Below are positions 927-31,112 of a stretch of DNA of 31,658 bases, in pieces (the stretch's first letter is position 1; every line of letters starts with the position of its first letter). A model generated the notes under the pieces. That model was given only the letters and a program-made list of their open reading frames with translations. It had not been told where the DNA came from and did no database searches. Location of the stretch: IMG/VR virus record IMGVR_UViG_3300044988_000112, positions 1-31,658 of that record, one strand, 5' to 3'. The translations under genes were made by a program, and so were the position numbers. The DNA comes from a virus.

Positions 927-3900
927 TTATCGATACCCACTTTCACGATTAGTGCTATTAACACCATTTGTAATTTGTGGAATCATTTGTTGTATTTCAT
1001 TTCTTGTTTGGCGTGAAATATCACCAGTTACATTAATATTAAATACTTGTTTTTGTTGTCCTAGTTTTTGAGTATCTCTTGCTGTAGCTGCATTTGCAAC
1101 AGAAGCATAAGCTTGTGTATTTACAAAACCACCTTCAGCAAAACGAGGCATTTTATTATTATTAATCATTTCTAATAAAGCACGATTACCTCTTGTAGCT
1201 TTGGCATTAATTACAAATTCACCATTAGACAACATAGCTGGAATTGAATCAGAAGTACCTGTGCCTGCTCCATATACAGGGCCACCAGTTGCCATCATTG
1301 GACCAAATTGTAGGAAGTTTGAGAATGTTTCAAACCCACCGCCACTAAATAATCCACCAAGCCCGCCTAATAAACTTCCAAAAATACCGCCACCACCACC
1401 ACCTGAAAACAAAGATGTAAGTCCACTAAAAGCATTTTGGAATAAACCTCCAAGACCACTTAAGCCTTTCATAAAACCATCGCCAAGCCCTTGTAATCCG
1501 CTTAGTAAGCCCATTGTTTGTTGCTCAGTTGCAATAACAGTTGCATCACTAGCTGCATCAGTAGCAGTAACAACAGGGTTCTCACCTTCGTTTCCACCAA
1601 CACCACCAAGCAAAGGAGTATCAATAGATGCAGTATCTTTTGTAGTTGCAGAACCTGAGAATAATTCTCTCATCCATGTACCTACTTTGTTACCAATATC
1701 TATTTGACCACCAACAAATGTTTGAGCAAATGCTGTAAAGAAACTACCATCTTTCCCAAAAATACCTTCAGTAAAGCCTTTTACAAAATTATCCATAATA
1801 GATTTTGTTGTAAACATAGCTAAATCTTTAAAGAATTCTTTTGGTTTCTTAGTACCTTCTAAAACATCAATAATACCCGTTGTGATATTTGACATCATTT
1901 GTGTTACATAGTTTTGAGCTGCTGTTATTGCAAGACTACTAGGAATACTCTTAATATCACCTGTAATCTTGTCAATAGTTAATCTATGGAAATTTTCATA
2001 TTCAGAGATTATTTTAGCTCTAAGTTCTTCCGCTGCCATTTTCAATGTTGGATCATCAACATTATTTGATAAAGCATCTACTGCAGAACTGTAAGATGTC
2101 ATTAGCTCATCGAGACGGTCTGCAAATTCAGGAGTCATTGCTTTCAAACTTTTTGCAGTTAATTTTAGTTTTGAAAAGTCTTTTAATTTTTCATTAATAT
2201 CATCTACAGATTTTTGAGCATTATCTTTTGCAAAATAAACACTAGTCTTTAATGTTGTATTAACTTTAGGGTTAGTTTTAGCATCTAATGCAGTTTCTTT
2301 TTCTTGCATAGCTAAAGAAGTACTGATATTAGGTGTCTTCAAATAAGCAGCTTTAGCGTCAATATACTCTGTAATTGCATCTGCAATTCCTTTAGCTTCT
2401 TCTAGAGAAGTTATAGGACGATCTAAATATGGCTTACCAGCTTCTTGTAATTTATCTCCAATCATTTGTCCATAAACGGGAGCCGTTGCAAGGTTAACAG
2501 GTAATGTAGATAGTCTTTCTTTTAATGCAGGAACCTTTGCAGTTCTAATTGTATCGAGTGCATCTTGAAGTGTTTTATAAGCTTCTTCTGCTTTCTTCTT
2601 GATTAACGCACCTGCACTTGCTGGTATTTTTGCAGCCTCTAATCCACTAGTAATATTCTTAACTAAATCTTCTTGTTCAGCTGTAGATAGTTTTACAAAG
2701 TCTTCAACTAATATAGGAGTTTGTTTAAGAGAATTAAGTGCTGAATTTACTAATGCAACTTGTGCATCAATATCTACTGCTTCCGCAAACTTGTCTGCAA
2801 AATTAGGAGGAGTTGCTTTAAATACTGAAAGCCAACCATCAACTGTTTTCTCTGCAAAGCCAAGAGATAAAGCAAACGATTTTACTTCTGAAGTTGCTTT
2901 TTCAAACCAGCCCGTTGGTTTTGTATCAGCTGTAGCTTTTACAGTTTCACGACCTTTTCCACCTGTTTCAACATTAGCAATTGCAACTGCTAAAGCTCTT
3001 AAAGTGTTTTCAGTAGGCGCTAAAGTTGTATCAACCTCTTGACCAATTGATTTAGAAACTGCTTCATAGTATTTCTCTTGAGTAATATCGCCTTTACCTC
3101 TTTGATCTGAAGGTGGTCTCCATAAGTCAATAATTTCTTTAACTGTTACTTTTGGATCATTACCAGCAGCTTTACTCTTACCAGTCATATAAAGTTCTAT
3201 TTGTTTCATAGAAGCTTTAAGTGCATCTTCTTTCGTTTCAAATACTCTAAAATCACCTGTTTTTGCATCTTTTAAGTTTGTGATATTATTTGCTCGCATT
3301 TGAGCATTACTTGTTTCACTTGCATTTGCTGAAGATATAGGATTAAGTTTACTTAAAATATCAAGTGGTGTTTTCGAGAGTTGTGCATCAATTGCTCTAA
3401 AAGTTTTAAATTGATTTAAGAATTCAAAAGGTGTTTTAGAAAGTTCTTCATTTATTGCTCTAAAAGTTTTAAATTGATTTAAGAATTCAAGCGGTGTTTT
3501 TGAGAGTTGTGCATCAATTGCTCTAAAAGTTTTAAATTGATTTAAGAATTCAAAAGGTGTTTTAGAAAGTTCTTCATTTATTGCACCAAAGAAATCTTTT
3601 ACACGTTTTAAACTTTCAAGATTCTTTTGACGTTCTTCTGTTGTAACACTTTCTTGAATTTTCTTAGCTTGACCTGCTAAAAATGGATCGTATGAAACAT
3701 TAGGATTACCTGCTGAACCAAAGCCTGCTTTACGTTGTTCATCACTTAATTTAGCACGTTCAGCTTCTAAACGAATTTTCTCAGCTTTTGCAAGTTCGAA
3801 ATCTTTTGCAGATTTTGGGTTAGCATATGCTTTACTGTTTTCATTTAATGCTTTTGTATTTTCTGAAAGTTTAGCCTTTAATGCATCAACTTCTTTTGTA

Positions 3901-6900
3901 TCAATTAGATTAAATCCAACAGCTTTATTAATTCGAGGAGCCCAACTATCTAATAACGTTCTTAACTTATTAATAAAGTCGTCCAATACTTTACCCATTG
4001 CTGACCATATTTCTGGATTCTTCCAAAGAATATAACCAGCTGCAAAAGCACCAATAATTAGACCTGGAATTGTTGTGAACACAGAAGCAAAAGCAAGCGG
4101 AATACCCCTTACTAAAACAGCAGTAATACTGCCAAATAATGCAGAACCAATAACTTGTCCAACAAGAGCTACAGCCATTGTTGTACCGACTTTCATCCAT
4201 TCAGAAGAACCTGCCATTCCTTTAGCAATTTCTGTACCCATTTGAAAACCAGCAAGACCACCAAAGATACCACCAACTCCAGCTACATTTGCAACTGTTG
4301 ATCGTTTAAGTTCTTCTGTTCCTGTTGCTAATCTTTCTTTCATAGCATTAGATGCTTTTGTCATCATAGCTACTTTTTCTTGAGCAATTGCAGCTTTACT
4401 TTGAGCTATTGCAAGAGCATTTGTTGCTTGTGTTTCTCTTAAAACTGCTGAATTTAAAATATTAAAAGCAGCTGCTGTTCGATTTGTATTTGTAATTGCA
4501 TTGCGAGCAGCTTCTGTTTCTAATTTTCTTATTCTTAATTTCTCTTCGGCATCTTTAACATTAGCTAATGTAAGCTTTTCTGTTAACGCTGTACGAAGTT
4601 GCATTTGTTTTAAGTCAAAGCGATCTGCAATATTTCTACCGATATTAGTAGGCGCAACTACAGTCTTAGCAGCCATAGAAGCAATAGCAGAACGACCTGA
4701 TTTAAATAATAACATCATACCGCCAATGGCAATTAATGTTTCTTTTAAACTACTAGCAACCGCTAATAAGCCACCTTCTTTAAATACCCCGCCAAAACCT
4801 TTTGGTCCAAATACTTCACCAAAGAAGAAGGTAATTCCTTTACTTATAATATTGAATACACCATAGGTAAGTGCACCAGTAAACCTAGTAACTTCAGCTG
4901 GATCTACAATCTTTAAAGTTAATTTAGCAGAAGTTAAAGCTGTAATACCTGCAACTAAAACACCTAATTGTCCAAAGCCAAAAGTCTTTAATGCCAAGCC
5001 AACAGCTAAACCAGTAGCAGTAGCTAAAGCAGGAATTTGCAATTGAACAGGCAAAGCATTAACTACATCTGAGCCTATTGTTCTCTTCTTTCTTTCTCTT
5101 TGATAACCAGCCCCTACATAAGCAGTAGTAGAAGATTTACCAATTCCACCTGGAGCATTTAAATCTTTAAAAGTATAAGCTATTTTATCTTGAACACCTA
5201 GCAATTGTTTTAAAGTATGACCAAGTTGTGAATGATCAAAATAATTCTTTAAATCTTTATAAAATGTTCCTGTTTGGCCTGTTGTTGTTTTATATAATTC
5301 TTTACTATTTAAAGCAACAGCACCTGCTAAAGTTAATAACCCTGTTTTAAATGGATTACCAATTGCTTTCATTACAAGTAAAGTTAACAGCCCATAAACT
5401 GCAGTACTTATTGAAACAATACCCATTGACAACGGTTTAGTTAGTGTAGCAACTAATAACCCCATTGCAGGAATAAGACCTTTTATTCCAGTTAAACTAG
5501 AAACTAAAGAGGAGAACCCTAATGCGCCTACAGTACCCATTACAGGTAATGCTAAATCTTTTGCATTAAGTTCACTAGTATTTGCTTGTTTGCCTACACT
5601 AAAAGAACTTCCAAATATATCATTTGATTTACCTTTTAATGTATTAATAGCATTGTCCATGTACTTGACTAGCTTGCCAAAACCTGCAGATGCATTATCA
5701 AAATTAAATAATGTATCTTTGATATCTGTTAATTTCTTAAAAGCATTATCTACAAAATTAGTAAAATTTTCTACTACTTTTGTTGGTGTTCCTGTAAGTT
5801 TACCAATCCATTCAATAACACCATTTACTAAGTCAGGAATCCAGGAGTGACCAATTACTCGATCATATACCCAAAAGAATGCATGCTCTACTTTAGAAGC
5901 CCACATATTTACATATGCAAGTGATGCATTTAAATCAGGGAAAATATCCATTGCTTTTATTGGTGTTAAAGTAATACCTTTAACTGCGTCAATAGCTTTG
6001 CCAATAGCAACTTCAATAGCTTTAGGAACTGCAGTAAAAGCACTTATTACTGAATGTCTAAATACTAATAAACTAACTTTTAATATTAAAAACTTTTCAT
6101 CAAGAGATTCTGCAAATCTTGCTAATGAAATTGCTTGTTTGTTTAACCAATCAGCAATACCAATATCACCTGCAATATCAGAGAAAGCTCTCATTGTTAA
6201 GAAAGCAGCATTACCAATATTTGTAAATGCTTGAGCAAAAGTTATACCAGTTTTACTAAAAGCTTTATTTGCATCTTCAGTTCCTAGCACAAGAGCACCA
6301 AATACTTCTTTAGAAGTAAGTTTGCCTTCTGCACCAAGTAACTTAATTTGTTCACGAGAAACACCCATACCTTTAGCAATTACATCTAAAAGCATTGGAG
6401 CATTTTCTGCAATAGATCTTAATTCATCACCTTGTAAAACACCAGAGGATAATGCTTGACCTAATTGAATAATTGCAGCTTGTGATTGTTGTGCGCCAGC
6501 ACCAGAAGCAGTCATAATCTTTGAAACGTTTTGAGTAGCAATTGCTACTTGACGTTGTGTAGCGCCTAGTCTTTGAGAAGACATAGATAGCTTTTGATAT
6601 AGTTCTGCAACAGCTGCAATAGGTGTTCTAGTAGATACAGCAATATTCTTTACAGCCAATAGACTTGTTTGAAAGTCTTCATTTGATGCTGCTGCAACTC
6701 TTAATCGAGTATCTAAATTTGTAATTGAATCTGATAGTCTAATAATACCAGTAAATCCAGCAAAAGCAGCGCCTGCAATTGCTAATGATTTTACAAGACT
6801 ACTTAATGAGTTACTTAAAGAGTCAGCACTTTTCTGAGCATCTTTAGTATTCAAAGAAAGTTTAGTTTCTTTTAAATTGTTTGTTTGTGATTTTAATTTA

Positions 6901-7142
6901 GCAAGACTATTTTCAAGATCTTTAGAAACATTAGTTTTAACGTTTACTTTAATATCTTTTCCAGCTTGCCGTAGTTTTGTTAACTTTGTTCCAGCACTAT
7001 CAATATCTTTACTGTTAACTTTTAAATTAACAGGCTTGGAGCCAATTAGTGAGTCTCTTATACTCAAGGCCGTAGCTCTGAGTTTGTTTAAATCTGATTG
7101 TGCCTTCTTGGAGTTGGATCTTACCTCTAACTCAATGGCCAT
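927..7142 (-). CDS. Tape measure protein with embedded muramidase-like segment
   Basis: 2071 aa. This protein sets tail length during assembly and lies inside the tube until ejection. Residues about 1-120 are Lys/Ser-rich and helical (FELEVRS-like start, KKAQSDLNKLRAT). Residues about 125-285 match the phage tape measure N-terminal domain (RLSDSITNLDTRLRVAAAS, QGDELRSIAENAPMLL, GKLTSKEVFGAL). Hydrophobic stretches lie near residues 527-620, 697-737 and 990-1041. A 21-residue tandem repeat sits at about 1187-1270. Residues about 1286-1396 look like a phage cell-wall hydrolase segment (FRVFETKEDALKASMKQIELY, IIDLWRPPSDQ, VAIANVETGGKG). The C-terminus has the usual GGPVYGAG...DSIPAMLSNGEFVI motif. 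ATG at 7142 follows AAAGGAATATC. Tail length near 300 nm is inferred from the length rule. Confidence 0.95.
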   Translation of the reverse strand: MAIELEVRSNSKKAQSDLNKLRATALSIRDSLIGSKPVNLKVNSKDIDSAGTKLTKLRQAGKDIKVNVKTNVSKDLENSLAKLKSQTNNLKETKLSLNTKDAQKSADSLSNSLSSLVKSLAIAGAAFAGFTGIIRLSDSITNLDTRLRVAAASNEDFQTSLLAVKNIAVSTRTPIAAVAELYQKLSMSSQRLGATQRQVAIATQNVSKIMTASGAGAQQSQAAIIQLGQALSSGVLQGDELRSIAENAPMLLDVIAKGMGVSREQIKLLGAEGKLTSKEVFGALVLGTEDANKAFSKTGITFAQAFTNIGNAAFLTMRAFSDIAGDIGIADWLNKQAISLARFAESLDEKFLILKVSLLVFRHSVISAFTAVPKAIEVAIGKAIDAVKGITLTPIKAMDIFPDLNASLAYVNMWASKVEHAFFWVYDRVIGHSWIPDLVNGVIEWIGKLTGTPTKVVENFTNFVDNAFKKLTDIKDTLFNFDNASAGFGKLVKYMDNAINTLKGKSNDIFGSSFSVGKQANTSELNAKDLALPVMGTVGALGFSSLVSSLTGIKGLIPAMGLLVATLTKPLSMGIVSISTAVYGLLTLLVMKAIGNPFKTGLLTLAGAVALNSKELYKTTTGQTGTFYKDLKNYFDHSQLGHTLKQLLGVQDKIAYTFKDLNAPGGIGKSSTTAYVGAGYQRERKKRTIGSDVVNALPVQLQIPALATATGLAVGLALKTFGFGQLGVLVAGITALTSAKLTLKIVDPAEVTRFTGALTYGVFNIISKGITFFFGEVFGPKGFGGVFKEGGLLAVASSLKETLIAIGGMMLLFKSGRSAIASMAAKTVVAPTNIGRNIADRFDLKQMQLRTALTEKLTLANVKDAEEKLRIRKLETEAARNAITNTNRTAAAFNILNSAVLRETQATNALAIAQSKAAIAQEKVAMMTKASNAMKERLATGTEELKRSTVANVAGVGGIFGGLAGFQMGTEIAKGMAGSSEWMKVGTTMAVALVGQVIGSALFGSITAVLVRGIPLAFASVFTTIPGLIIGAFAAGYILWKNPEIWSAMGKVLDDFINKLRTLLDSWAPRINKAVGFNLIDTKEVDALKAKLSENTKALNENSKAYANPKSAKDFELAKAEKIRLEAERAKLSDEQRKAGFGSAGNPNVSYDPFLAGQAKKIQESVTTEERQKNLESLKRVKDFFGAINEELSKTPFEFLNQFKTFRAIDAQLSKTPLEFLNQFKTFRAINEELSKTPFEFLNQFKTFRAIDAQLSKTPLDILSKLNPISSANASETSNAQMRANNITNLKDAKTGDFRVFETKEDALKASMKQIELYMTGKSKAAGNDPKVTVKEIIDLWRPPSDQRGKGDITQEKYYEAVSKSIGQEVDTTLAPTENTLRALAVAIANVETGGKGRETVKATADTKPTGWFEKATSEVKSFALSLGFAEKTVDGWLSVFKATPPNFADKFAEAVDIDAQVALVNSALNSLKQTPILVEDFVKLSTAEQEDLVKNITSGLEAAKIPASAGALIKKKAEEAYKTLQDALDTIRTAKVPALKERLSTLPVNLATAPVYGQMIGDKLQEAGKPYLDRPITSLEEAKGIADAITEYIDAKAAYLKTPNISTSLAMQEKETALDAKTNPKVNTTLKTSVYFAKDNAQKSVDDINEKLKDFSKLKLTAKSLKAMTPEFADRLDELMTSYSSAVDALSNNVDDPTLKMAAEELRAKIISEYENFHRLTIDKITGDIKSIPSSLAITAAQNYVTQMMSNITTGIIDVLEGTKKPKEFFKDLAMFTTKSIMDNFVKGFTEGIFGKDGSFFTAFAQTFVGGQIDIGNKVGTWMRELFSGSATTKDTASIDTPLLGGVGGNEGENPVVTATDAASDATVIATEQQTMGLLSGLQGLGDGFMKGLSGLGGLFQNAFSGLTSLFSGGGGGGIFGSLLGGLGGLFSGGGFETFSNFLQFGPMMATGGPVYGAGTGTSDSIPAMLSNGEFVINAKATRGNRALLEMINNNKMPRFAEGGFVNTQAYASVANAATARDTQKLGQQKQVFNINVTGDISRQTRNEIQQMIPQITNGVNSTNRESGYR
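3333..3584 (-). repeat. 63-bp tandem repeat x4 inside tape measure gene
   Basis: Four head-to-tail units of 63 bp encode 21 residues each, alternating between AINEELSKTPFEFLNQF-type and AIDAQLSKTPLEFLNQF-type units, each followed by KTFR. Unit starts (GCA codons) fall at 3584, 3521, 3458 and 3395. Units 1 and 3 and units 2 and 4 are nearly identical at DNA level, so a 126-bp pair was probably duplicated recently. The last unit diverges after SKTPL. Confidence 0.92.
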
Positions 7143-10386: not shown

Positions 10387-11574
10387 TTAAGAGTGGAATA
10401 CTGGCAAGATGCCTAGGCTTAAAGCACTACTTGCTTTACGAGTCCATGTACCAGTTGTAGATGCCAATGTGCCTGAAGCAACAGCTGACAAAGCTTTTGG
10501 TGTACCGCCTTCAATAGCGTAACCGTAAGCAGCGTTGCTTGGGAAAGCATCTTGTGAACCAGCCCAGTTGTAACCAGCTGGATGACCAACATAACCCCAA
10601 CGATACCAGATAGAAGTTGAACCACCACCGTTGTAAGCGTTACCATCACGGAACATTTCAACAGAATCAGGAACAGCTAAGTTTTCCATTGCTAGAGCAC
10701 CAGGCAATACAATGAAAGAAGTCTTAGTACCAACGATATCTACACCAGCACCAGTGTTGATTTTAGTTAAATCAGCAGAAGCAAAACCTTGGCTAGCACG
10801 GGTTTGAATCAAACGGAATTTACCACCGAAAATAGTGTTAAATGTTACATTACCTTCTACTACGCTAGTTTGATCAACTAAGTTAGCTGAACGCAATGAA
10901 GCCATAACTTCTGGTGAAGTTACTAAGTAAGCATAATCTGGCTCGTAGTCTTTGTAAGCCATACCAAATGCTTGTAAGAAACCTTCAGCACGTTGAGCGC
11001 CTTGATTACCTGCAGTAGCAGCAGTAACAACTTTAGAAGCGCCTAAATCAACATAGAAACCATAGCGTTTGCTTGTTGGATCGTTGTCGAATGTTTGACC
11101 ACCAAGGCCAGTAGCACCAGAAGCAGCTGCAGCACCGTTTAAAGCTTCAGAAAGAGCAACACCTTTTAAGATAGAAAGGATAGCATCGCTTTCATCTTGT
11201 GCGCGTGTTTCAGCAAAGTCACGACCAATTTTAGCTAAGCCATCTACTTGAGTAACAACTTGAGCCATATTAACTTTTTCAGCACCATGAGTACGAACAG
11301 TTTTAACATAGTTTAAGAAGTCAGAAGCAAAGTTTGTTTTAGCACCTGCAGAAGCAGTATCTAAAGAAGCAACGTTTACAGTTGCGCTCAATGGTTTGAA
11401 CCAACGAACTTGACCAACATAAGTTTCAGTAGAAGTATCGATATCAGGGTTTGAACCTACGATACCAGTGCCAGATAATTTTTTAGCGTTAGTGTAGGCT
11501 TCATCAGCATAAGCACTAATTGCAGATTGTAGTGCATAGTTAGATGCACCAGCGATGTCTGTACGAGCAGTCAT
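10387..11574 (-). CDS. Major capsid protein
   Basis: 395 aa. It lies directly after a coiled-coil scaffold gene and before the adaptor, the standard place of the major capsid gene. The sequence has a helical N-terminal region (YALQSAISAYADEAYTNAKK), a long spine-like helix (DGLAKIGRDFAETRAQDESD) at residues about 110-135, an Ala/Gly-rich loop, YLVTSPEVMASLRSANLVDQ, and a C-terminal domain containing YRWGYVGHPAGYNWAGSQDAFP. This is consistent with an HK97-fold coat protein. ATG at 11574 follows AAGGAA. GC content and codon choice are slightly richer than in neighbours, as often seen in highly expressed genes. No separate protease gene is visible nearby. Confidence 0.88.
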   Translation of the reverse strand: MTARTDIAGASNYALQSAISAYADEAYTNAKKLSGTGIVGSNPDIDTSTETYVGQVRWFKPLSATVNVASLDTASAGAKTNFASDFLNYVKTVRTHGAEKVNMAQVVTQVDGLAKIGRDFAETRAQDESDAILSILKGVALSEALNGAAAASGATGLGGQTFDNDPTSKRYGFYVDLGASKVVTAATAGNQGAQRAEGFLQAFGMAYKDYEPDYAYLVTSPEVMASLRSANLVDQTSVVEGNVTFNTIFGGKFRLIQTRASQGFASADLTKINTGAGVDIVGTKTSFIVLPGALAMENLAVPDSVEMFRDGNAYNGGGSTSIWYRWGYVGHPAGYNWAGSQDAFPSNAAYGYAIEGGTPKALSAVASGTLASTTGTWTRKASSALSLGILPVFHS

Positions 11575-11590
11575 TTATTTATTTCCTTGT

Positions 11591-12295
11591 TTATTTTTGG
11601 TTAGGTAATTTGCCTTCAGAAGCTAACTTAAGAACTTCTTCTTGAGTCATCTTGAAAACAGAAGTTTTCTGTTCACCACTAGGGTTTCCAGATTTATTTG
11701 AATCAGTGTTACCGCTACCACTATTAGTTTTAGATTTGAACAAGAATGAGTTATCATCACTTGTAGAGAATGTAAGAACAAAATCTTTAATTGATATGCC
11801 AGAGCGGTGAATCCATTCACCTTTATCGTTCTGCATCAATTGGTTTACTATCTCGCGATAGGCCATATCAGCAGCATTTTCATTTCTAAATGCGTATCCT
11901 TTTAGTACGTCACGTACCGTAACATCACGAGTCAACTCGGTATTACGTTTTTCAAGTGCTTCACGTTTAGCTTTCTCTTCAGCAAGTTGTAATTCATAAG
12001 CTTCCTTATGTTTACCTTCTTCTTGCAATCGTTTAAGATTTGCTTCTTTTTCTTTTTGTTCAAACTCAGCAACTTTTTTTAAGGCATCGTCTCTAGAACC
12101 GTAAGCCCCATCAAGTTTTGATTTCAATTCCTTCAGTTCAGCTTCTACCCGTTCTTGAACTAATTTTGCAATCATATCTTTGTCTTTTTCATCGTCAGGT
12201 TGTTTCTTATCTGCTTCGATGCCAGCATTATATGTCGCTAATTCGTCAGGAGTTAGTTCTGCAATTTCTTCAGGTGTTAATAGTTTTGTAGCCAT
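11591..12295 (-). CDS. Capsid scaffolding protein
   Basis: 234 aa from the ATG at 12295, beginning MATKLLTPEEIAELTPDELA; this start has a strong GAGGAAG ribosome site and is preferred over an in-frame codon seven residues upstream. The protein is highly charged and coiled-coil (residues about 45-125: QERVEAELKELKSKLD, KEANLKRLQEEGKHKEAYEL, EKRNTELTRDVTVRD). The tail is Ser/Asn/Gly-rich and ends with FKMTQEEVLKLASEGKLP, a capsid-binding-like helix. It acts inside the procapsid during assembly. Position just before the major capsid gene supports the call. Confidence 0.87.
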   Translation of the reverse strand: MATKLLTPEEIAELTPDELATYNAGIEADKKQPDDEKDKDMIAKLVQERVEAELKELKSKLDGAYGSRDDALKKVAEFEQKEKEANLKRLQEEGKHKEAYELQLAEEKAKREALEKRNTELTRDVTVRDVLKGYAFRNENAADMAYREIVNQLMQNDKGEWIHRSGISIKDFVLTFSTSDDNSFLFKSKTNSGSGNTDSNKSGNPSGEQKTSVFKMTQEEVLKLASEGKLPNQK

Positions 12296-12354
12296 TTTAT
12301 TTCTTCCTCTGAGCACAGCTCGTTGACCTAAAGTACAACTCTAGGATTTGATTT

Positions 12355-12393
12355 TAAAAAATAAGAGACACCATTAAATATAGGTAGTGTCTC
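12355..12393 (-). terminator. Intrinsic terminator after MuF-RNA polymerase gene
   Basis: On the minus strand GAGACAC (plus 12387-12393, read in reverse complement) pairs with GTGTCTC (plus 12365-12371) across an AT-rich loop, followed by TTATTTTTTAAAA. It lies 17 bases past the giant gene's stop and upstream of the scaffold gene. It would separate low-copy head genes from the abundant scaffold/capsid block. The 59 bases downstream to the scaffold ATG leave room for a promoter, though no convincing sigma-70 match is seen. Confidence 0.8.
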
Positions 12394-12410: not shown

Positions 12411-14590
12411 TTATCCAATTCCATACCATCCAAAATCTTGAAAGAAATCTTCAGGTATTTCTTTGAGAATATCTTCTCGCATTAATATATCTTTATCTGT
12501 TATTAACTTACCATTAATTCTAGATCTACCAACTACTGGTATTAATCCAATTTCAATAGCCTCATTTAGATATTGATCATATAATGATTTAGGTAAACCT
12601 CGTTTTCTCATTTCATCTAATGTCATTTTAATAACATTATTACGAAGTGCATTTGCGTAGATTTTCCTTAAGTCTCTTCTTGCCTTTAACATATCAGCTG
12701 CATTTGTAAAGAAAGCATCGTGAATAGTAGAGGTTTGAATATTATTTTGTTTACCCCAAATATGAAAGTTTTTAACTAATGTAGCATCATTGGAATGGTT
12801 ACCATTAACAGCAAAAGCCGTTCTTGCCTTTCCAGCATCTGCAATATCATTAATTGTATCTGATTTATTTAAGACTTCATCCCACCAAGTAGGGTCTGTC
12901 TTTTGATCAATCTGAACAATATTTGTTATCCACTTACCATTAGCATCTTTATAGGTTAAACGTTCTTCAAAACGTTGTGTAAAGTTTTGTTCAATGATTT
13001 TACCATCAAAATTAACCCATGGCACTGTTGTCCATTTTTTAGGTAAAACTTTTTCACGAATACCATAAAGAATATTAGCTAATGTACTATTTGGAGAGTA
13101 TCCAGGGATACGGTTAAGAACACTTAATGGAGCTTGTTTTCTAACACCAATTACTTCTTTAGCTAAAATAGTAGCTAATCCTTGAGAACTATTTGAAGGC
13201 TTTGCATTAATAAGAAAATCTTCTGCAAGTCTACCAAAGAATCGTGTAAACTCTTTTAAGATAGGGACTTGTGTTCTTAAATTTTCACTCATAATTTTAG
13301 CAATAGAAGCAAAATCATCTGGTGTTACAATACGATCATATGATTGAGATAATTTTTCAACTAAATCTCTAGTCTTAGGTTCAAGAAAGTATAATTGTTC
13401 AATTATATCATCCCCTGGAACTAGTCCTTTATTAAAGATATCTTTAACATCTTGCCGTAAAGCTTTTAATTCTAAATAGAGTTCTGGGTCGTATTGTTCA
13501 TACCTTGCCATCCTTGCACTAATTTCGCTAAGTACAGTTTCTCTATCTGCTGCTTTTACAACCAATGTTCCTTCTTCTTTATTTAAGGCTTTAGCTAATT
13601 TACCTTCAACGTTTATAATTCCTGTTCTATCACCTGCACCATAGAATGTAACCATGTTTTGTGCTTTAGCTGCTTTTCTTAAATCTTTTTCTGTAAGGCC
13701 AAGTTTTAAGTTTAATTCTCTAAAACGAGAATCATTAAAAGTAGCAGCTGCAATTTCATCGTATAGTCTTCTTTTCTGGTTTGTTGGAACTACATTTGAT
13801 AATTCCGCTAATTGTTTATTTCTTGTGGTTAAAGCAATAATTTGAGCTCCGCTTGAAGAGGCATCTTGTTCAAGAGCTAGTGAGATTCTATAAGCAGATA
13901 ATTTATCAAGGTTTTTCTTTGTAAAATTACCTTCTAAAAATTCATTAATTCTAGACATTTCCAGGGCAAAACGTAATACCTTGCCTTGTTCCTCGCCATC
14001 AACACGCTGTAAAAACTCGTTCTCGAGTACATTACGTATGTCTTGGGGCTTACCTCTGCGCATTGAGTCACCAATTTTTATTAAATCAGCTTTCCAAGTT
14101 TCAGCAATTTTCTGACGTCCACTGAAAGAAAGTGAATTATAACGACCTTCGAAAGTATCGCTTAATCCGCCTAAGAACCCACCTATCTGATCTTGAAGAT
14201 TATTATATTCTTCACGACTAAATAACTTAGATTCTGCTGTATTTAAAAATGGTCTAAAAGTCTCGCCAGATTGTGGGCCAATTAATCCACGTTCATAAAT
14301 ACGAGCTCTGTGGTCTAAGAATGGTGTATTACTAAAAGCAATATCCTTTTCTCTTAACCACTGCATTGCTTTAAGACGCTCATACGCATCTCCACGCTGT
14401 ACTATATATTCTCTATAATGATTTAAGCTATGGAAATACTGAGCCTTACCTTTATCATCTTCAAAATTAATTAATTTATTTGTAAAGTCATAAAAGTCTT
14501 TATCAATTTTATATTGAGTCTTAGCTGACCAATTTAAGGCTTCTGCCATTGTTTTGTCAACAAGTTCTACTGGAAAATCACTAAAACTAC
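12411..14590 (-). other. T7-type RNA polymerase catalytic region within the MuF fusion
   Basis: Sub-feature covering residues about 770-1494. Motif codons: DxRxR at 14301-14315; motif A aspartate at 13863-13865; motif B tyrosine at 13641-13643; motif C HD at 12717-12722. Compared with T7 RNA polymerase, motif A to the motif B lysine is shorter (66 versus 94 residues), while the motif B tyrosine to motif C aspartate is longer (308 versus 173). The specificity-loop region therefore carries an insertion. No catalytic residue is missing, so an active enzyme is expected. Confidence 0.9.
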
Positions 14591-16895
14591 TAGTAGAAGT
14601 AATAGGAATTCTAGTATCTGTATAGCCCAAAATACCCTTATCAATAAAATATGTTTTATAACCTTCTCTAATTATTAATCTATTCTTTTCTTCTGTGACA
14701 CTAACACGAAGACCTAAGTCTACTTTACGAGTTAGTTGTGCATATTCTTGAATACGAGGATCTACGATTCTTAAATTAACAGCAAATGTATCATAATATG
14801 GGCCAAAGTAATTATTACTTAAGCGACTCTTCATTCTACGTTTCTGAACACCAAAGGTTTCTATTTCATAAATTCCTTTGTCTTTTGCGTCATCTAGTAA
14901 CTTGACACCTAGTTTCCACCATTCATTACGTGAACCTCTATAGTTAGCCATATTATATAAATCTCTGCCTAATGAGACAGCAAGCTGGTCTCTATCAGGT
15001 GAATCTGCTAAAGAAAGTCTGTTAGCAAATCTTAAATAAAAAGCGTTAATATCATCTTTATGTATTCTACTCCTTAATTTAACGGGTATCTTTAATGCAA
15101 GAAATCCGCTTAATTCTTTAGCAATCTTAGGAGCAATCTTATCTTCCCATTTATTTTTACTTTCGATATTCTTAATAAATGTATCGTGTAAATCTTGTAG
15201 TTGTACTGGGCCTAATACTGGATCAATATAATTATCTAGTTTTAATTTCTTAAGGAGATCTGCATCTTTTCTTAATTGAGTCTCCATATAATCAGAAACA
15301 TTCATTACATCAAATTTCATCTGTGCTACTGCAACTGCTTTGAAATTAGACCAAGGTTGTAAATCTGTTCTTGCTCGACCAAAAGTAATTCTAAGGTTAT
15401 CTGCAATTACAGCTCTTTCATTTACACCCATAGAGTTTTCTAGTTTATCTACAAATTGTAAAATAAAGTCTTTATCTCTTTGAAGAAGTTTATCACTTTC
15501 TTTTATGAGTCTTAAATTATTTTCAAGAGTTGCTAACGATGGTTGATATAGTCTTGCATCTTCATATCTTCCAGTTATAGGATTGAATATCATATTATCT
15601 TCGTTTGGTGGAGTATTTAATACTCTATTCTTAGTTGCTTTCTTTGTATGCAACAAGGAACCACGATAATTAACCAATGATAGATTACCATCTAATTCAC
15701 CAGCTTGTAATAAGTAATATTCTCGTAAAGCTTTTTGTAATTCTTTATTATCTAGGAAATCATCAGGTCTTGCGGCTCCAAGCTTAATGGTATCCAAACG
15801 CTCTTTTGCGATTGCAAATCTGCGTGTATCCCCTTGAATGGCGTAACCCGAATCTGTAAGCTGTCGTAATTCTTTGATTCCGACTGAGTTCCCTGAAGGA
15901 TTAGTAAACTTATCAAGCGTAAGCTGTCCTGATCTGAATATCTCAAGTTTGTCATAGTCTCCAATATGTCGGAGTTGTACATCTGTTGGCTGTCTTCGTA
16001 ACCATTCATCATAAGACTCTTTCAATGGAGTTTGACCATCATAAAATTGTATTTGCTTTTGACTTAAATCAGCAAAGTTTCTTTTTCTTATTTGTGCTAC
16101 ATTCTCAAGTTTTGATAAATCCTCCCAAGACTTCACAACAGGTATTGTAGTAGAACGACACCTAAAGTGAGCAGGAGGAAGATGAGAAGTATCACTGATA
16201 GGATAAATAGATCCATCACGGTGAGCGCATATTGGAGTAGTTCTTGAATCCAATACTGAAACATATTGCCAACCTTGTAATACTTTCTCATTTGCCTTGT
16301 ATACTTCATGATCTGTTTGAGCTGTTACACTTGTAATTGCTGTTGTTACTAATGCATTAGATTGATTTCTAGTAATATTAAAAACATTACCTTTTCGAAT
16401 ATCTAGAGCTAATTGAGTTGAAGTTTTACCTTCTGATAGACCTTTTCTAATAACTTGTTCAATTCTTTTTCTTTCACCAACACTGACGCCAGCCCACCCT
16501 TGCAACAGAGTTTTATCGTTATATAAAGGGCGAGTTAAAACAATTTCCTCAGCAATTCGTCTTTGTGGTTTAGCTGTACGCCAAATCTTCCCTACACCTG
16601 CTTCTAGATTTTGATATGTGTAGGATATTTGATCGGAGACTAAATCTAATAGAGAACGACTGGAGATTGTGTTCACCTCCTTGAAAGTTTTAGTGATTTC
16701 GGTATCTAATAAATCAAAGAATTTATTTATACCTTTACCAGAGAGTTGAGCTTCTTGAATTAATTTATCTACTCTGATTGTGTGACCGTCAACGATAAGC
16801 TCTACTTTACCATTAACGCGTCTTTCGTAAAGTCTTATCATGGCGCTTCGATCTACACTCTTATCATATATCAGAGTATTTACATTATCAGCCAT
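12411..16895 (-). CDS. Giant MuF head protein fused to T7-type single-subunit RNA polymerase
   Basis: 1494 aa. Residues about 135-255 are a phage Mu F-like head-morphogenesis domain: VLDSRTTPICAHRDG with D216 and C223, then LPPAHFRCRS with C246. MuF proteins are internal minor head proteins that associate with the portal. The C-terminal half is a single-subunit RNA polymerase. D861/R863/R865 match T7 DWRGR (421-425); D1011ASSSG matches motif A D537; R1073, K1077 and Y1085 match motif B R627/K631/Y639; H1367 in NHSND matches H784; H1392-D1393 match motif C H811-D812. It ends with EDFFQDFGWYGIG, like the T7 aromatic foot. Residues about 270-770 are unassigned and may include the polymerase N-terminal domain. 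ATG at 16895 has AAGGAAA. Delivery of the polymerase from the virion is inferred. Confidence 0.93.
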   Translation of the reverse strand: MADNVNTLIYDKSVDRSAMIRLYERRVNGKVELIVDGHTIRVDKLIQEAQLSGKGINKFFDLLDTEITKTFKEVNTISSRSLLDLVSDQISYTYQNLEAGVGKIWRTAKPQRRIAEEIVLTRPLYNDKTLLQGWAGVSVGERKRIEQVIRKGLSEGKTSTQLALDIRKGNVFNITRNQSNALVTTAITSVTAQTDHEVYKANEKVLQGWQYVSVLDSRTTPICAHRDGSIYPISDTSHLPPAHFRCRSTTIPVVKSWEDLSKLENVAQIRKRNFADLSQKQIQFYDGQTPLKESYDEWLRRQPTDVQLRHIGDYDKLEIFRSGQLTLDKFTNPSGNSVGIKELRQLTDSGYAIQGDTRRFAIAKERLDTIKLGAARPDDFLDNKELQKALREYYLLQAGELDGNLSLVNYRGSLLHTKKATKNRVLNTPPNEDNMIFNPITGRYEDARLYQPSLATLENNLRLIKESDKLLQRDKDFILQFVDKLENSMGVNERAVIADNLRITFGRARTDLQPWSNFKAVAVAQMKFDVMNVSDYMETQLRKDADLLKKLKLDNYIDPVLGPVQLQDLHDTFIKNIESKNKWEDKIAPKIAKELSGFLALKIPVKLRSRIHKDDINAFYLRFANRLSLADSPDRDQLAVSLGRDLYNMANYRGSRNEWWKLGVKLLDDAKDKGIYEIETFGVQKRRMKSRLSNNYFGPYYDTFAVNLRIVDPRIQEYAQLTRKVDLGLRVSVTEEKNRLIIREGYKTYFIDKGILGYTDTRIPITSTSSFSDFPVELVDKTMAEALNWSAKTQYKIDKDFYDFTNKLINFEDDKGKAQYFHSLNHYREYIVQRGDAYERLKAMQWLREKDIAFSNTPFLDHRARIYERGLIGPQSGETFRPFLNTAESKLFSREEYNNLQDQIGGFLGGLSDTFEGRYNSLSFSGRQKIAETWKADLIKIGDSMRRGKPQDIRNVLENEFLQRVDGEEQGKVLRFALEMSRINEFLEGNFTKKNLDKLSAYRISLALEQDASSSGAQIIALTTRNKQLAELSNVVPTNQKRRLYDEIAAATFNDSRFRELNLKLGLTEKDLRKAAKAQNMVTFYGAGDRTGIINVEGKLAKALNKEEGTLVVKAADRETVLSEISARMARYEQYDPELYLELKALRQDVKDIFNKGLVPGDDIIEQLYFLEPKTRDLVEKLSQSYDRIVTPDDFASIAKIMSENLRTQVPILKEFTRFFGRLAEDFLINAKPSNSSQGLATILAKEVIGVRKQAPLSVLNRIPGYSPNSTLANILYGIREKVLPKKWTTVPWVNFDGKIIEQNFTQRFEERLTYKDANGKWITNIVQIDQKTDPTWWDEVLNKSDTINDIADAGKARTAFAVNGNHSNDATLVKNFHIWGKQNNIQTSTIHDAFFTNAADMLKARRDLRKIYANALRNNVIKMTLDEMRKRGLPKSLYDQYLNEAIEIGLIPVVGRSRINGKLITDKDILMREDILKEIPEDFFQDFGWYGIG

Positions 16896-16909: not shown

Positions 16910-17698
16910 TTAATTTCGTTTTCGTTTCTTACTAAACATTTGATTTAATGTAGCAAGTGAAATCGGTACATCTTCGAATTGACCATCTTCTACTTCGTTT
17001 AAAACATAAACACCGCGCCAATGATTATTAGATTGAATATTTAAATAATCTTCATCATGTTCATAACAAGAACCAGCAATAATAGCTGTCATTGTTTTTC
17101 CATCTGCTCTTTTTCCGTAAAATATATCTCGGCCTTGTTGATGCCCTGCAATACAAGACTGATGCAATTTAGCAATAAGTGCGCGAGCAGTGCTGATAGG
17201 CCTACCCATAGCACCGCTAATAAAGTAATGACAAAAAGCAACACCTTCAATATTAATAGGCTGCAAGAACGGAACAGTATTCCAACCATTTTCTTCATAC
17301 TTTAAGTCCTCAAGAGAAATTAAACCTTCTAATTTAGGGTCATTTTGTATTGCCCTGTTTATTCGATTTTCGTGATTTCCATAAAGCATAATTAATTTTG
17401 GATTCCACTGTTTACGCCTAATTGCTATTAATCTTAAACGTTCTTTTCTAATAGGATTTAATAATAATTGTTGAGCATCCAATACTGATTGAACGTCTTT
17501 TTTATATCTAAGACCTTCCATACTCTTAGAGCCAGGCTTATCGTGTGAACATAGAGATGGCATATCTGCAAAGTCACCTAAATGAATTATATAATCAGCT
17601 TTAATCTTAACAGCATATCTTCCAATATCAGATAAGAAATCGTAATTTTCATCAGGTTTTACTTGAGTATCAGGAATAACCAAGATACGTTTAATCAT
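16910..17698 (-). CDS. Calcineurin-like metallophosphoesterase
   Basis: 262 aa. Metal-binding motifs are in the family order: PDTQ (D10, Q12), HLGDFAD (D42), YGNHE (N108, H109), CHYF (H157) and AGHQQG (H186). The first motif is DxQ rather than the common DxH, and the last is GHQQ rather than GHxH, both tolerated in some phage members. The family hydrolyses phosphoester bonds using two metal ions. It is encoded between the portal and MuF-polymerase genes, 11 bases before the next ribosome site region, so it is part of the head operon. The substrate is unknown; DNA-end or nucleotide processing are only possibilities. Confidence 0.85.
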   Translation of the reverse strand: MIKRILVIPDTQVKPDENYDFLSDIGRYAVKIKADYIIHLGDFADMPSLCSHDKPGSKSMEGLRYKKDVQSVLDAQQLLLNPIRKERLRLIAIRRKQWNPKLIMLYGNHENRINRAIQNDPKLEGLISLEDLKYEENGWNTVPFLQPINIEGVAFCHYFISGAMGRPISTARALIAKLHQSCIAGHQQGRDIFYGKRADGKTMTAIIAGSCYEHDEDYLNIQSNNHWRGVYVLNEVEDGQFEDVPISLATLNQMFSKKRKRN

Positions 17699-17707
17699 TA
17701 TAACCCC

Positions 17708-19267
17708 TTATTGAGACATGTCTTTCAACTTATCTAAATAGTTTTCACCAGAAGAATTTCCAGTGACCATTTCATCCCCATTAATTTCTAACTTACCATC
17801 CTCATCATTATAATCAGGGGCAATCATATCATTTTGTTTTAATACCATTAACCAAACTGAACGAGGAATAAGACCATTTTGATACCATTCTGTAACTAAC
17901 CGTAACCAATCAGCACCTAGTGGAGTTGGGTTAAAGTCTGCTGACAAACTAAATTCAATATCAGAAGAAACTAATTGTAAGTCATATCGCCAATTAAGCA
18001 TAAATGCAATAATATCAGACATTGTATTACTAATTTTAGTATTCAATGTACCGAGTTGTGCTGTTTGAGAAGCATTACGAATTTCTAAAGCTACACCTGA
18101 TTGGGCTGATTCTGGGGATAACATACGAATACCCATTTTAGCCATATCTTCTACTGTAGCTGCAATTGCTTTTTCCATATCTTGTAAAGCACCCGTTGGT
18201 GTTTCAAGAACTTTAGCATCATCCCCTTGACGTAGTCGTATCCAAGTTCCAAGACCTGAAGATACAATTTTATCAAAGTCTTCATCACTCATATCTGAAA
18301 TAATAATCGGTGTGTAAGTAGAAGCGCCATATAACAAATGATTACGTCTACTAATTTTATTATATAAACTAATTTCACGATCAATTAATGGTGTAAGTAA
18401 AGGTTCTGTAATTTCAATAGAACCATTTAAAGGCCAAGCAGGAATAAAATTTAAACGCTCGCCATTGTACATAATGTCTGTTTTAGTTTCAACTAACTTA
18501 TATACAGGATGTGCTATATGACTAATTGTTCGTTTTTCAAGAGCATTTTCAGAAATATTTGTGGAGTCTTTACGATATTTACGGATTTGATACATTCCAT
18601 TTAATATTTCATGTACATAAACAATATCAACAAATTCTGGGTGGAATTCATTTTTAGTAGTATCTTCTTCGTAACTACGAATTACAAGCATAGATAACTG
18701 TTGAATACCCTTTTTATCAACAGAGGTTTTCCAATTAATTACAGAAGTTGCTGAAAGTAATAATGGATATGGTTTATATTCTTTATATTCTGCTGCACTT
18801 AATTCTTCAGGATTAGGTATTACAGGATAATCTACATAAACCCAAGCACGACTTGTTTGTACTTCTTCCCATAATGCACGATCTAAGAAAGAAGCTAATG
18901 GTGCATTATCTTGAGCAAAGGCATCCATAATCCATTGATGTGCTTCCGAAGGAACTTTCTCAGGTAATTTTAATGTTGGCTGTTTACGTAATAATCCGCC
19001 TACAAGAGTTTTAGCATATTGAGAAACCATTCCAGGAAACTCTGCTTCAGACTTATAGAAATCAAACTGACGTTGTGTCATTGATGGCGAAAATGGTAAC
19101 AATAAATTACTGAAGTAAACATTATCAATGGTTTGGTCATAGTTTTTAACATAACGTTCACCACTACAAACCGCTCTACTTCTTGCCCATAAAGGCATAA
19201 TATCATCAAATGCAGCAATTGGATCTGCAACTGTTTTGATTTGTTGGGCAGCGTTATTTACGGCCAT
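17708..19267 (-). CDS. Portal protein (DUF4055-like)
   Basis: 519 aa, a normal length for a portal subunit. The N-terminus (AFDDIMPLWARSRAVCSGE) and the segment around FYKSEAEFPGMVSQYAKTLVGGLLRK match the DUF4055 portal family. The central part contains a wing-like beta region and PLIDREISLYNKISRRNHLL, followed by the stem-type helix segment (GVALEIRNASQTAQLGTLNT, MSDIIAFMLNWRYDL). Twelve copies should form the DNA channel at one capsid vertex. The next genes encode a metallophosphoesterase and the MuF fusion, and MuF proteins bind portals. ATG at 19267 follows AAAGGT. Call made from family pattern and context. Confidence 0.88.
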   Translation of the reverse strand: MAVNNAAQQIKTVADPIAAFDDIMPLWARSRAVCSGERYVKNYDQTIDNVYFSNLLLPFSPSMTQRQFDFYKSEAEFPGMVSQYAKTLVGGLLRKQPTLKLPEKVPSEAHQWIMDAFAQDNAPLASFLDRALWEEVQTSRAWVYVDYPVIPNPEELSAAEYKEYKPYPLLLSATSVINWKTSVDKKGIQQLSMLVIRSYEEDTTKNEFHPEFVDIVYVHEILNGMYQIRKYRKDSTNISENALEKRTISHIAHPVYKLVETKTDIMYNGERLNFIPAWPLNGSIEITEPLLTPLIDREISLYNKISRRNHLLYGASTYTPIIISDMSDEDFDKIVSSGLGTWIRLRQGDDAKVLETPTGALQDMEKAIAATVEDMAKMGIRMLSPESAQSGVALEIRNASQTAQLGTLNTKISNTMSDIIAFMLNWRYDLQLVSSDIEFSLSADFNPTPLGADWLRLVTEWYQNGLIPRSVWLMVLKQNDMIAPDYNDEDGKLEINGDEMVTGNSSGENYLDKLKDMSQ

Positions 19268-28155: not shown

Positions 28156-29493
28156 TTAAAAATTAAAACCTCGTGAGGTTCTTTTGTTACCAACATTAAT
28201 TGGGAATAAGTACGATACAGAATAACGAATATTATCAGAGAAGTGTTCTACACCTTGAGTTTTATCGATTGTTGCTATATCAGGATTCTTGTCAGTCCAT
28301 ATAGTGCGTTCTAAAGATGTAATAGTTCCTTCACAACGAGGATGTATAAAGAGATTTACTTCTCCAGCAGCTGTCTTTAACATACGATTAACACATTGAG
28401 CACTATCTACTAACGATGGAGCCTTATTAGGTGCTCTAGTAGTTATTCCATATTGCTCTAATATTGAAAAGTCTGTAACACCGACTGCAGCTGAAGTCTT
28501 TCTAGATCTTCCTGAAGGATCTGGGTAAGCATATACCCTATGACCTTTATCAATATATTTAGCTTTAATTGTTTTAGCTAATGTATCTGTGTCAGGATGC
28601 CCTTTAAACTCATCTATGTAATGTACTTGATTTCCTCTGACAGCAAAGACTGAAGAAGCTTGTATACCAACGTTAAAGTCAATACCAATATGAACATCTT
28701 CATTTTCTGTAAAGTCTGGGATATCTGTTCGAATATGTGTAACCCTATCAAAACAATAAAACACAGAATTACCTGATTCTTTAAAGCTTGCAAGGTATTC
28801 TCTACCAAACTCTAAAGGATCAATTGTGTGTCTAATTCTTTCTATCTCATCTGGATCTAGATATGGTGATTGTGTGTAGTCATAAGCATATGAATTCCAC
28901 CTATCATCTTTCTCTTTAAAGTTAACCATATCATAGAAGTAATCATAACCCTTAGGGGTACTAATGATTAATGCTCTACCAGCACTTGGAGCACCAAAAG
29001 CTTTAGCTCGTCTAGGTGACCATCGAGTAGCAATACAAGGTTGAATAACACCTTCCCATGCTGATTGTAATCCAATACCTTTAGTCCAATCACGGACTTC
29101 ATCACATACAACAAAATACGCACCCATACCACGCATACGCTCTACTGCTTCATAAGAAAGCAATCTTAGTTCTACGTCTTTAGGAAACCATAATCTACCT
29201 AAGTCACGACTATGTTTTGTTGTGTATTGATCAAGCCCTAATTCATACATTAGCAAAGGAAAATAAATATCCGTTACTTGAGTATAAGTAGGAGCAATAA
29301 TATAGACGTTCTTATTAGGAACACCTTTTGGTAATTGTAATAATTCAAATACTGCATTAGCTGCCGCAACAGCTGCAAAGTAACTTTTACCCCATCCACG
29401 AGAAGCTACTACTGCTGAAAATCTATTCTTTTTAGTCACAAATAAATCTTCAAATACTTCTGATTGTCCTGGATGTAAGTTGATTTCACTCAT
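28156..29493 (-). CDS. terL: Terminase large subunit
   Basis: 445 aa. This motor pumps DNA into the prohead and cuts it. N-terminal ATPase: Walker A-like ASRGWGKS (K36), Walker B VVCDE (D131, E132), coupling motif IISTPKG (residues 177-183). C-terminal RNase H-like nuclease: HIGIDFNVG (D272), YIDEF (D294), YPDPSG (D325) and EHFSDNIRY (D420). Length is typical. It lies downstream of the small terminase and a small gene, all in one operon, but unusually about 9 kb from the portal gene. ATG at 29493 has AAAGAAAAT. Motifs are intact, so this is a confident call. Confidence 0.95.
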   Translation of the reverse strand: MSEINLHPGQSEVFEDLFVTKKNRFSAVVASRGWGKSYFAAVAAANAVFELLQLPKGVPNKNVYIIAPTYTQVTDIYFPLLMYELGLDQYTTKHSRDLGRLWFPKDVELRLLSYEAVERMRGMGAYFVVCDEVRDWTKGIGLQSAWEGVIQPCIATRWSPRRAKAFGAPSAGRALIISTPKGYDYFYDMVNFKEKDDRWNSYAYDYTQSPYLDPDEIERIRHTIDPLEFGREYLASFKESGNSVFYCFDRVTHIRTDIPDFTENEDVHIGIDFNVGIQASSVFAVRGNQVHYIDEFKGHPDTDTLAKTIKAKYIDKGHRVYAYPDPSGRSRKTSAAVGVTDFSILEQYGITTRAPNKAPSLVDSAQCVNRMLKTAAGEVNLFIHPRCEGTITSLERTIWTDKNPDIATIDKTQGVEHFSDNIRYSVSYLFPINVGNKRTSRGFNF

Positions 29494-30744: not shown

Positions 30745-30836
30745 AAAAAAAAAAAAAAAAAAAAAAGAAACCCCTACAAATATTCTTAAGATAACCCATA
30801 GAGGGCTAAATTAAGAATATTTGTAGGGGTTTCTTT
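30745..30836 (-). terminator. Very strong intrinsic terminator with 22-T tract
   Basis: A 23-bp perfect inverted repeat (plus 30767-30789 and 30811-30833; 26 bp counting flanking A-T pairs) surrounds a 21-base loop that can form an inner CCC/GGG stem. Read on the minus strand it is followed by 22 consecutive T residues (plus 30745-30766). It begins right after the stop of the 90-aa gene, so it ends the small-gene transcript and insulates the terminase operon. The stem is much longer than typical terminators and could also be an RNase III target. Confidence 0.95.
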
Positions 30837-30839
30837 AGT

Positions 30840-31112
30840 TTATTTTTTAACTTTTGTTGAACGAGCTCTCTCCAATAATACCCAATGTTTATTCAGGTGA
30901 CTAATAGAGTCTCCGCTATCAAGAACATATTGCACATTCTTTTGACGGATTGTTTCTAATGTGTAATTGAACTCATCTTCACTCATTAAATAAATGGAAT
31001 GATGGCGTATCATATACAAAGCCATTTCTGCACTTATTCTGATTGCTCTTAGTTCATGACGCATTAAAGCTTGTTGGGTATATAATGGAATTATAGCACG
31101 AGTCTTTTTCAT
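30840..31112 (-). CDS. Small basic helical protein, unknown
   Basis: 90 aa from the ATG at 31112 (MKKTRAIIPLYTQQALMRHE), two bases after the stop of the 33-aa gene; an in-frame TTG four codons upstream is less likely. It is helical and basic (LRAIRISAEMALYMIRHH, YTLETIRQKNVQYVL) and ends RSTKVKK. I do not recognise a family. It is the last gene before the large terminator, in a cluster of tiny genes likely expressed separately from the structural genes. Confidence 0.65.
   Translation of the reverse strand: MKKTRAIIPLYTQQALMRHELRAIRISAEMALYMIRHHSIYLMSEDEFNYTLETIRQKNVQYVLDSGDSISHLNKHWVLLERARSTKVKK

Follow-up and report, generated by a model that had tools for sequence, protein, structure and literature searches.

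The locus examined here raises the question why a phage head gene should run on, in one reading frame, into an RNA polymerase, and where and when such a polymerase would act. The window, that is the whole stretch of viral DNA that was analysed (31,658 nucleotides), is a 31.7-kb fragment that covers only the late half of its genome. Its minus strand carries a late-gene block that also includes connector and tail genes. Within this block the fusion gene forms a single frame of 1494 codons with no internal stop, positioned according to PHROGs matches between the portal gene on one side and the genes for the scaffold and the major head protein on the other (Table 1). The preliminary description of the sequence had proposed that this frame joins a MuF head domain to an RNA polymerase, and this is borne out with unchanged boundaries, both Pfam domains scoring above their curated cut-offs. 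The Phage_Mu_F domain (PF04233) is matched at residues 144-251 with an E-value of 7.7e-14 (52.8 bits against a cut-off of 29.6), and the RNA_pol domain (PF00940) in two stretches with an E-value of 1.5e-12 (47.5 bits against a cut-off of 22).

Table 1. Features of the fusion gene and of its surroundings in the window.
Feature	Position	Strand	Basis
MuF-RNAP fusion gene, 1494 aa	12411..16895	-	ORF list, Pfam, PHROGs
MuF/head-morphogenesis domain, residues 1-346	15858..16895	-	PF04233, phrog_241
Linker region, residues 347-563, mostly helical	15207..15857	-	structure models
T7-type single-subunit RNA polymerase, residues 564-1494	12411..15206	-	AlphaFold, VIA, Foldseek
DxRxR motif, D861-R865	14301..14315	-	D, R, R invariant; aligns with T7 D421-R425
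Motif A, LEQDASSSGAQII, catalytic D1011	13836..13874	-	alignment
Motif B, R1073-G1086 (K1077, M1081, Y1085)	13638..13679	-	alignment; R1073 not invariant
NHSND motif, H1367	12786..12800	-	alignment
Motif C, H1392 D1393	12717..12722	-	alignment
Terminator-like hairpin GAGACAC ... GTGTCTC TTATTTTTT, behind fusion gene	12356..12393	-	sequence
Terminase large subunit	28156..29493	-	phrog_2 E 4e-34
Portal protein, upstream of fusion	17708..19267	-	phrog_145 E 2.8e-57
Metallophosphoesterase, between portal and fusion	16910..17698	-	PF00149; phrog_221 E 1.6e-46
Head scaffolding protein, downstream of fusion	11591..12316	-	phrog_206 E 4.4e-12
Major head protein	10387..11574	-	phrog_247 E 8.1e-18
Tape measure protein, separate 2071-aa gene, long tail	927..7142	-	PF20155 E 9.5e-52

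The head-morphogenesis family phrog_241 extends over residues 1-346 (E 1.7e-62). The signature PP-x-H-x2-CRS occupies residues 240-248, and its P240, P241, H243, C246, R247 and S248 are invariant among 21 homologues. No family was assigned to residues 347-563, and a model of residues 1-570, of low confidence (pLDDT 74, pTM 0.49), found no significant match in the PDB.

For the C-terminal part, sequence comparison and structure prediction point to the same fold. RNA polymerase is also the PHROGs match here (E 1.3e-19), the five catalytic blocks align with those of T7, SP6, phiKMV and N4 RNAPII, and hhalign against T7 gave an E-value of 7e-6 over 497 columns. A phmmer search of the full protein against PDB sequences returned no match, and PH1932, the top profile match beside weak T7 blocks, was taken as chance. 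The AlphaFold model of residues 330-1494 (pLDDT 83.5, pTM 0.76) has T7 RNAP elongation complexes as its best Foldseek matches (E 6e-19), and superposition with VIA (Z 28.9, 3.4 A, 532 residues) pairs residues 568-1494 of the protein with residues 38-883 of T7 RNAP, which supports the T7 polymerase fold proposed earlier for the C-terminus. Because of this alignment the model places the start of the polymerase near residue 564 and gives it a T7-like N-terminal domain; the earlier start at residue 770 has to be given up. Weaker fold matches were mitochondrial RNAP (Z about 25) and then N4 mini-vRNAP (Z 18.7). A profile comparison with N4 mini-vRNAP found no match (hhalign probability 0.3%, E 0.19), and kinship with the N4 enzyme lies in the fold alone.

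The catalytic motifs were previously described as complete. In 21 full-length homologues, down to 31% identity, D861, R863, R865, D1011, K1077, Y1085, H1367, H1392 and D1393 are indeed invariant, but R1073 is not, being replaced by Q in the homologues L019/L129 and by A in the phage DSS3_VP1. The suggested likeness of the C-terminus to the T7 foot likewise holds in part: the terminal FGWYGIG is unlike FAFA in sequence, whereas the C-terminus of the model superposes on T7 residue 883.

The same domain fusion, which it had been suggested to seek in databases, was found repeatedly. A profile scan detected relatives encoded by 525 IMG/VR stretches, and among deposited phages the fusion is present in DSS3_VP1 and DSS3_PM1 (Naomviridae, 31% identical) and in EBPR siphovirus 1 (55%), where the annotation goes no further than "minor head protein-like" or "head protein". 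Both Pfam domains were present in each of 21 homologues tested, separate contigs (L001, L002) are near-identical across the joint, and in 84 intron-free relatives the part examined reads as one open frame. A near relative without the fusion, the kind of comparison that was made for P23-45, was not found. Compared with the relative L003, substitutions are mostly synonymous in both parts, with dN/dS of about 0.16 for MuF and about 0.13 for the polymerase, which points to purifying selection on both. A search for prophages in genome contigs yielded two contigs of one MAG only, and thus no sign of lysogeny.

The fused frame is preserved despite group I introns at conserved sites. In EBPR siphovirus 1 the gene (gp47-gp49) is split by an HNH-bearing group I intron, and in several relatives the polymerase part is interrupted around residues 697, 880, 1080, 1367 and 1393, at or near catalytic motifs, with group I introns at four to five polymerase positions in L020, L023, L025, L030, L033 and L045. 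Other insertions were seen as well. On a 104-kb contig the MuF-RNAP gene (L041:8240-16931) is interrupted in frame, at C246 of the MuF motif, by an intein-like insert that begins CYLEDTEVLT and ends WGSN before Cys; with at least five group I introns in addition, it is unusually fragmented for a phage gene. In L027/L036, L037 and L038 an in-frame insert of about 140-150 aa precedes motif A at residue ~991. The inserted domains share the site but seem unrelated; judged by eye, that of L038 resembles ParB, and those in L036 and L037 had no Pfam match.

Several other elements of the window were recorded. The terminator-like hairpin behind the fusion gene, absent from the hairpin scan listing owing to its 15-nt loop, occupies the site where many relatives carry the CCCGTTAAATTAACCC motif described below. 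Small hairpins with a [CT]TGT[AG] loop (GAGTTGTACTC and GGCTGTGCC types) lie at 12411-12310 on the minus strand, and nearly all relatives, DSS3_VP1 too, have them between the MuF-RNAP stop codon and the scaffold gene; a function in RNA processing or translation control is possible. Upstream of the terminase block there is a 53-nt inverted repeat (30745-30855, 83% complementary, 5-nt spacer) that adjoins a 22-nt A run, and an Rfam match to MIR5070 at 30765-30835 was dismissed as far below the gathering score. The minus strand also encodes, at 22334-27334, a tail-fibre-like protein of 1666 aa in which collagen repeats are combined with an S74 chaperone domain.

If the fused polymerase served the start of infection, the rest of the genome would be informative, and since the window is a late half this part is known from relatives only. 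A second, separate T7-like RNAP (RNAP2) is encoded by 31 fusion-bearing records of about 50 kb or more, comprising 17 near-complete relatives and 14 further contigs chosen independently, and DSS3_VP1 has such an enzyme as well (at 42436). RNAP2 is a single chain in most relatives, and its gene is split in several genomes. It was not seen in shorter fragments, the window included, nor in the partial EBPR record, which incomplete coverage would explain. In a phylogenetic tree the eight RNAP2s that were included cluster with T7-like enzymes. The MuF-RNAPs form a clade (99/100) apart from T7/SP6/phiKMV and from the RNAP2s (98/99), in a tree with uncertain rooting and long branches; because the two enzymes fall in separate clades, there is little to suggest that the pair arose by recent duplication. 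One of the genomes, G012 (L144-L147, 78,554 bp), is probably complete, since its ends are identical over 127 bp.

When the intergenic sequence of four genomes, of the roseophage DSS3_VP1 and of the EBPR phage was screened, unsupervised, for words that recur, the four genomes pointed to two families of promoter-like motifs and DSS3_VP1 to a single one. Another ten genomes were examined afterwards, so that 10 of 14 played no part in motif discovery. The early motif, with the consensus GCGG-N10-TATCTTATATGA, has 39 sites in the 14 genomes, all 39 on the coding strand, where shuffled sequences lead one to expect 2.6. It has 11 positions that are invariant by selection, and the columns of the GCG and the A-tract stand at 1.0-1.8 bits. 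In every one of the 14 genomes the nearest site lies 1.9-7.3 kb upstream of the catalytic block of RNAP2, and in the three genomes that were mapped the motif precedes a run of small genes ending in RNAP2. Twelve genomes together contain 50 sites of the second motif, CCCGTTAAATTAACCC; none was expected, every site is on the coding strand, and they fall in the middle and late regions. Roughly half of the relatives have one such site immediately after the stop codon of MuF-RNAP and before the scaffold gene. Both motifs avoid ORFs: 36 of 39 early sites and 47 of 50 CCCGTTAAATTAACCC sites fall outside them, compared with 19% of the sequence. Some CCCGTTAAATTAACCC sites are followed, inconsistently, by CCCT-GAA-AGGG. 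No excess of hairpins resembling N4 promoters was detected at the motif core.

The association was also tested in the reverse direction. Among 15 contigs of at least 50 kb that were picked by the early motif alone, 14 encode both polymerases and one encodes neither. All nine contigs picked by CCCGTTAAATTAACCC contain the early motif (22 matches against 2 in a reversed-pattern control), and eight have the MuF-RNAP; the remaining one is apparently a piece of the phage that G043 represents. This association of early motif and fusion lies within one phage lineage, and shared descent explains part of it. In DSS3_VP1 the stretch leading to RNAP2 opens with a diverged form of the early motif, GGCATCTATAATGA, at 35810 and 36257; also present are a shorter form, CATCTATAATGA, at 67794 and 13 T7-like AATAGGNTNCGTTAAAGAGGG sites. 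In the window itself a repeated-word search revealed neither motif, as expected for a late-region fragment, and a partial match, GTTAAATTAA, near 30.7 kb is within chance at 35% GC.

In view of the above, the following course of events can be considered. During assembly the MuF domain would bind the portal and thereby place a few copies of the fused polymerase inside the procapsid. In SPP1 it is the portal that directs the MuF protein gp7 into the procapsid, and the SPP1 gene order, with the MuF gene between portal and scaffold/major head genes, is that of the fusion gene (PMC6316719). On infection the fusion protein would pass out by way of portal and tail, either before the DNA or along with it, and would refold in the cell. 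There it could start transcription of the early region at a linear promoter, which would be GCGG-N10-TATCTTATATGA in most relatives and GGCATCTATAATGA in DSS3_VP1. As this region includes the RNAP2 gene, RNAP2 would be made, and it would read the second promoter class in the middle and late regions, CCCGTTAAATTAACCC or, in DSS3_VP1, AATAGGNTNCGTTAAAGAGGG.

Packaging, ejection, activity and the assignment of motifs to enzymes are the steps that we infer. Packaging and transcription on entry gain independent support from the second RNAP in every near-complete relative and from the co-occurrence of the early-region motif with the fusion. A cascade like those of N4 and P23-45 fits the place of the gene, an early motif that precedes RNAP2 and a second motif beyond it. 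That a polymerase domain of about 930 aa would have to pass a long tail counts against the model, and so does the poor structure prediction for the N-terminal part, which found no structural match. Taken as a whole, a MuF-docked polymerase that is ejected and starts early transcription nevertheless seems to us the probable explanation. It is somewhat less probable, though still favoured, that the early motif is read by the MuF-RNAP, an assignment derived from position and by elimination. We give about even chances to the wider proposal that a widespread long-tailed lineage has its own virion-polymerase solution, in which a deeply diverged T7-fold enzyme delivered by a portal-docked MuF protein uses a linear dsDNA promoter and hands over to RNAP2, with the host RNAP needed little or not at all.

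Host RNAP might instead read the early genes, with the polymerase still packaged and ejected. The MuF-RNAP would then pull DNA in or prime replication, and the early motif would be the site of a phage or host regulator. One sigma-70-like site in the early region of G014 scores 11/12, and the tie between motif and polymerase is itself deduced from sequence; both would suit this reading. Across that region, however, such sites were not in excess (10 found, 13 expected), sigma-70 sites are far more variable than the early motif, whose spacing is unlike -35/-10, and the motif co-occurs with the fusion. We therefore regard a host-driven early phase as unlikely. Still less likely is a late enzyme of the infected cell, made with the head genes, of which only a cleaved MuF part would matter for the virion. 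The location of the gene in the late operon would agree with this, but every homologue scanned keeps the fusion, also across introns, and RNAP2, with its presumed motif in the late regions, is already there for late genes. MuF proteins can be dispensable structural components, as is SPP1 gp7 (PMC6316719), and the polymerase fold could then be catalytically dead and act as an internal DNA-binding core protein; we consider this very improbable, the catalytic residues other than R1073 being invariant at 31% identity and dN/dS of the polymerase part being about 0.13. That two genes were joined by chance, or through the assembly error against which the preliminary description had cautioned, is refuted by the single frame in 84 intron-free relatives and independent contigs and by the fusion in DSS3_VP1, DSS3_PM1 and EBPR siphovirus 1.

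A virion-borne MuF-RNAP would be a third type of carrier for a virion RNAP, after the stand-alone protein of N4 and the tape measure of P23-45, and MuF proteins, known for toxin cargo, would take part in starting the expression of the phage's own genes. For a large and mostly uncultured group of phages two promoter sequences and a two-polymerase cascade are predicted. The isolated DSS3_VP1 and DSS3_PM1 offer a tractable model for the passage of a large enzyme through a long tail and, as DNA of DSS3_VP1 (Naomviridae) contains deoxyuridine (PMC12697855), for transcription of such a genome on entry. Should the enzyme prove active, it may provide laboratories with a new promoter-specific polymerase.

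Three known systems are comparable. In N4 the virion RNAP transcribes early genes, the RNAPII genes among them (PMC12633501). This enzyme (gp50, Schitoviridae) resembles the proposed one in being a single-subunit virion RNAP of related fold (Z 18.7) that is accompanied by a second, T7-like RNAP. It differs as a stand-alone protein of 3,500 residues in a podovirus with hairpin promoters, whereas the fusion has a MuF carrier in a long-tailed phage and no conserved hairpin at its putative promoter motif. A survey of MuF and N4-like RNAP proteins found N4-like virion RNAP modules only in N4-like phages, and the MuF-RNAP is not named in the available part of that survey (PMC5512222). In the Thermus siphovirus P23-45 a vRNAP fused to the tape measure transcribes pre-early genes, including that of a second RNAP (nvRNAP), and there are two motif classes (PMC10770324). 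The parallel of a siphovirus with an RNAP fused to a structural protein and two motif classes is close, but there the carrier is the tape measure and both RNAPs are of the two-barrel, cellular type, while the present fusion combines MuF with a T7-type enzyme. Within the literature searched, the earlier view that such a system was not described thus holds for the MuF carrier and the polymerase class, and not for structural-protein-fused virion RNAPs of siphoviruses as such. Toxins on MuF C-termini have been proposed to be delivered into the host (PMC6316719), and MuF-fused toxins and polyvalent proteins share with the fusion the MuF N-terminus, a C-terminal enzyme and proposed host delivery (PMC6316719, PMC5512222); here the cargo would be a polymerase that serves the genes of the phage itself. 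A single-subunit virion RNAP with MuF as its carrier appears to be undescribed in the literature searched, which did not include the original papers on DSS3_VP1 and EBPR siphovirus 1, where a passing mention is possible. The virion RNAP is known as a kind; what appears to be new is MuF as the carrier, together with the lineage of the polymerase and an early motif that is linear. The present analysis also adds the second, separate T7-like RNAP and the two strand-consistent motifs in fusion-bearing genomes.
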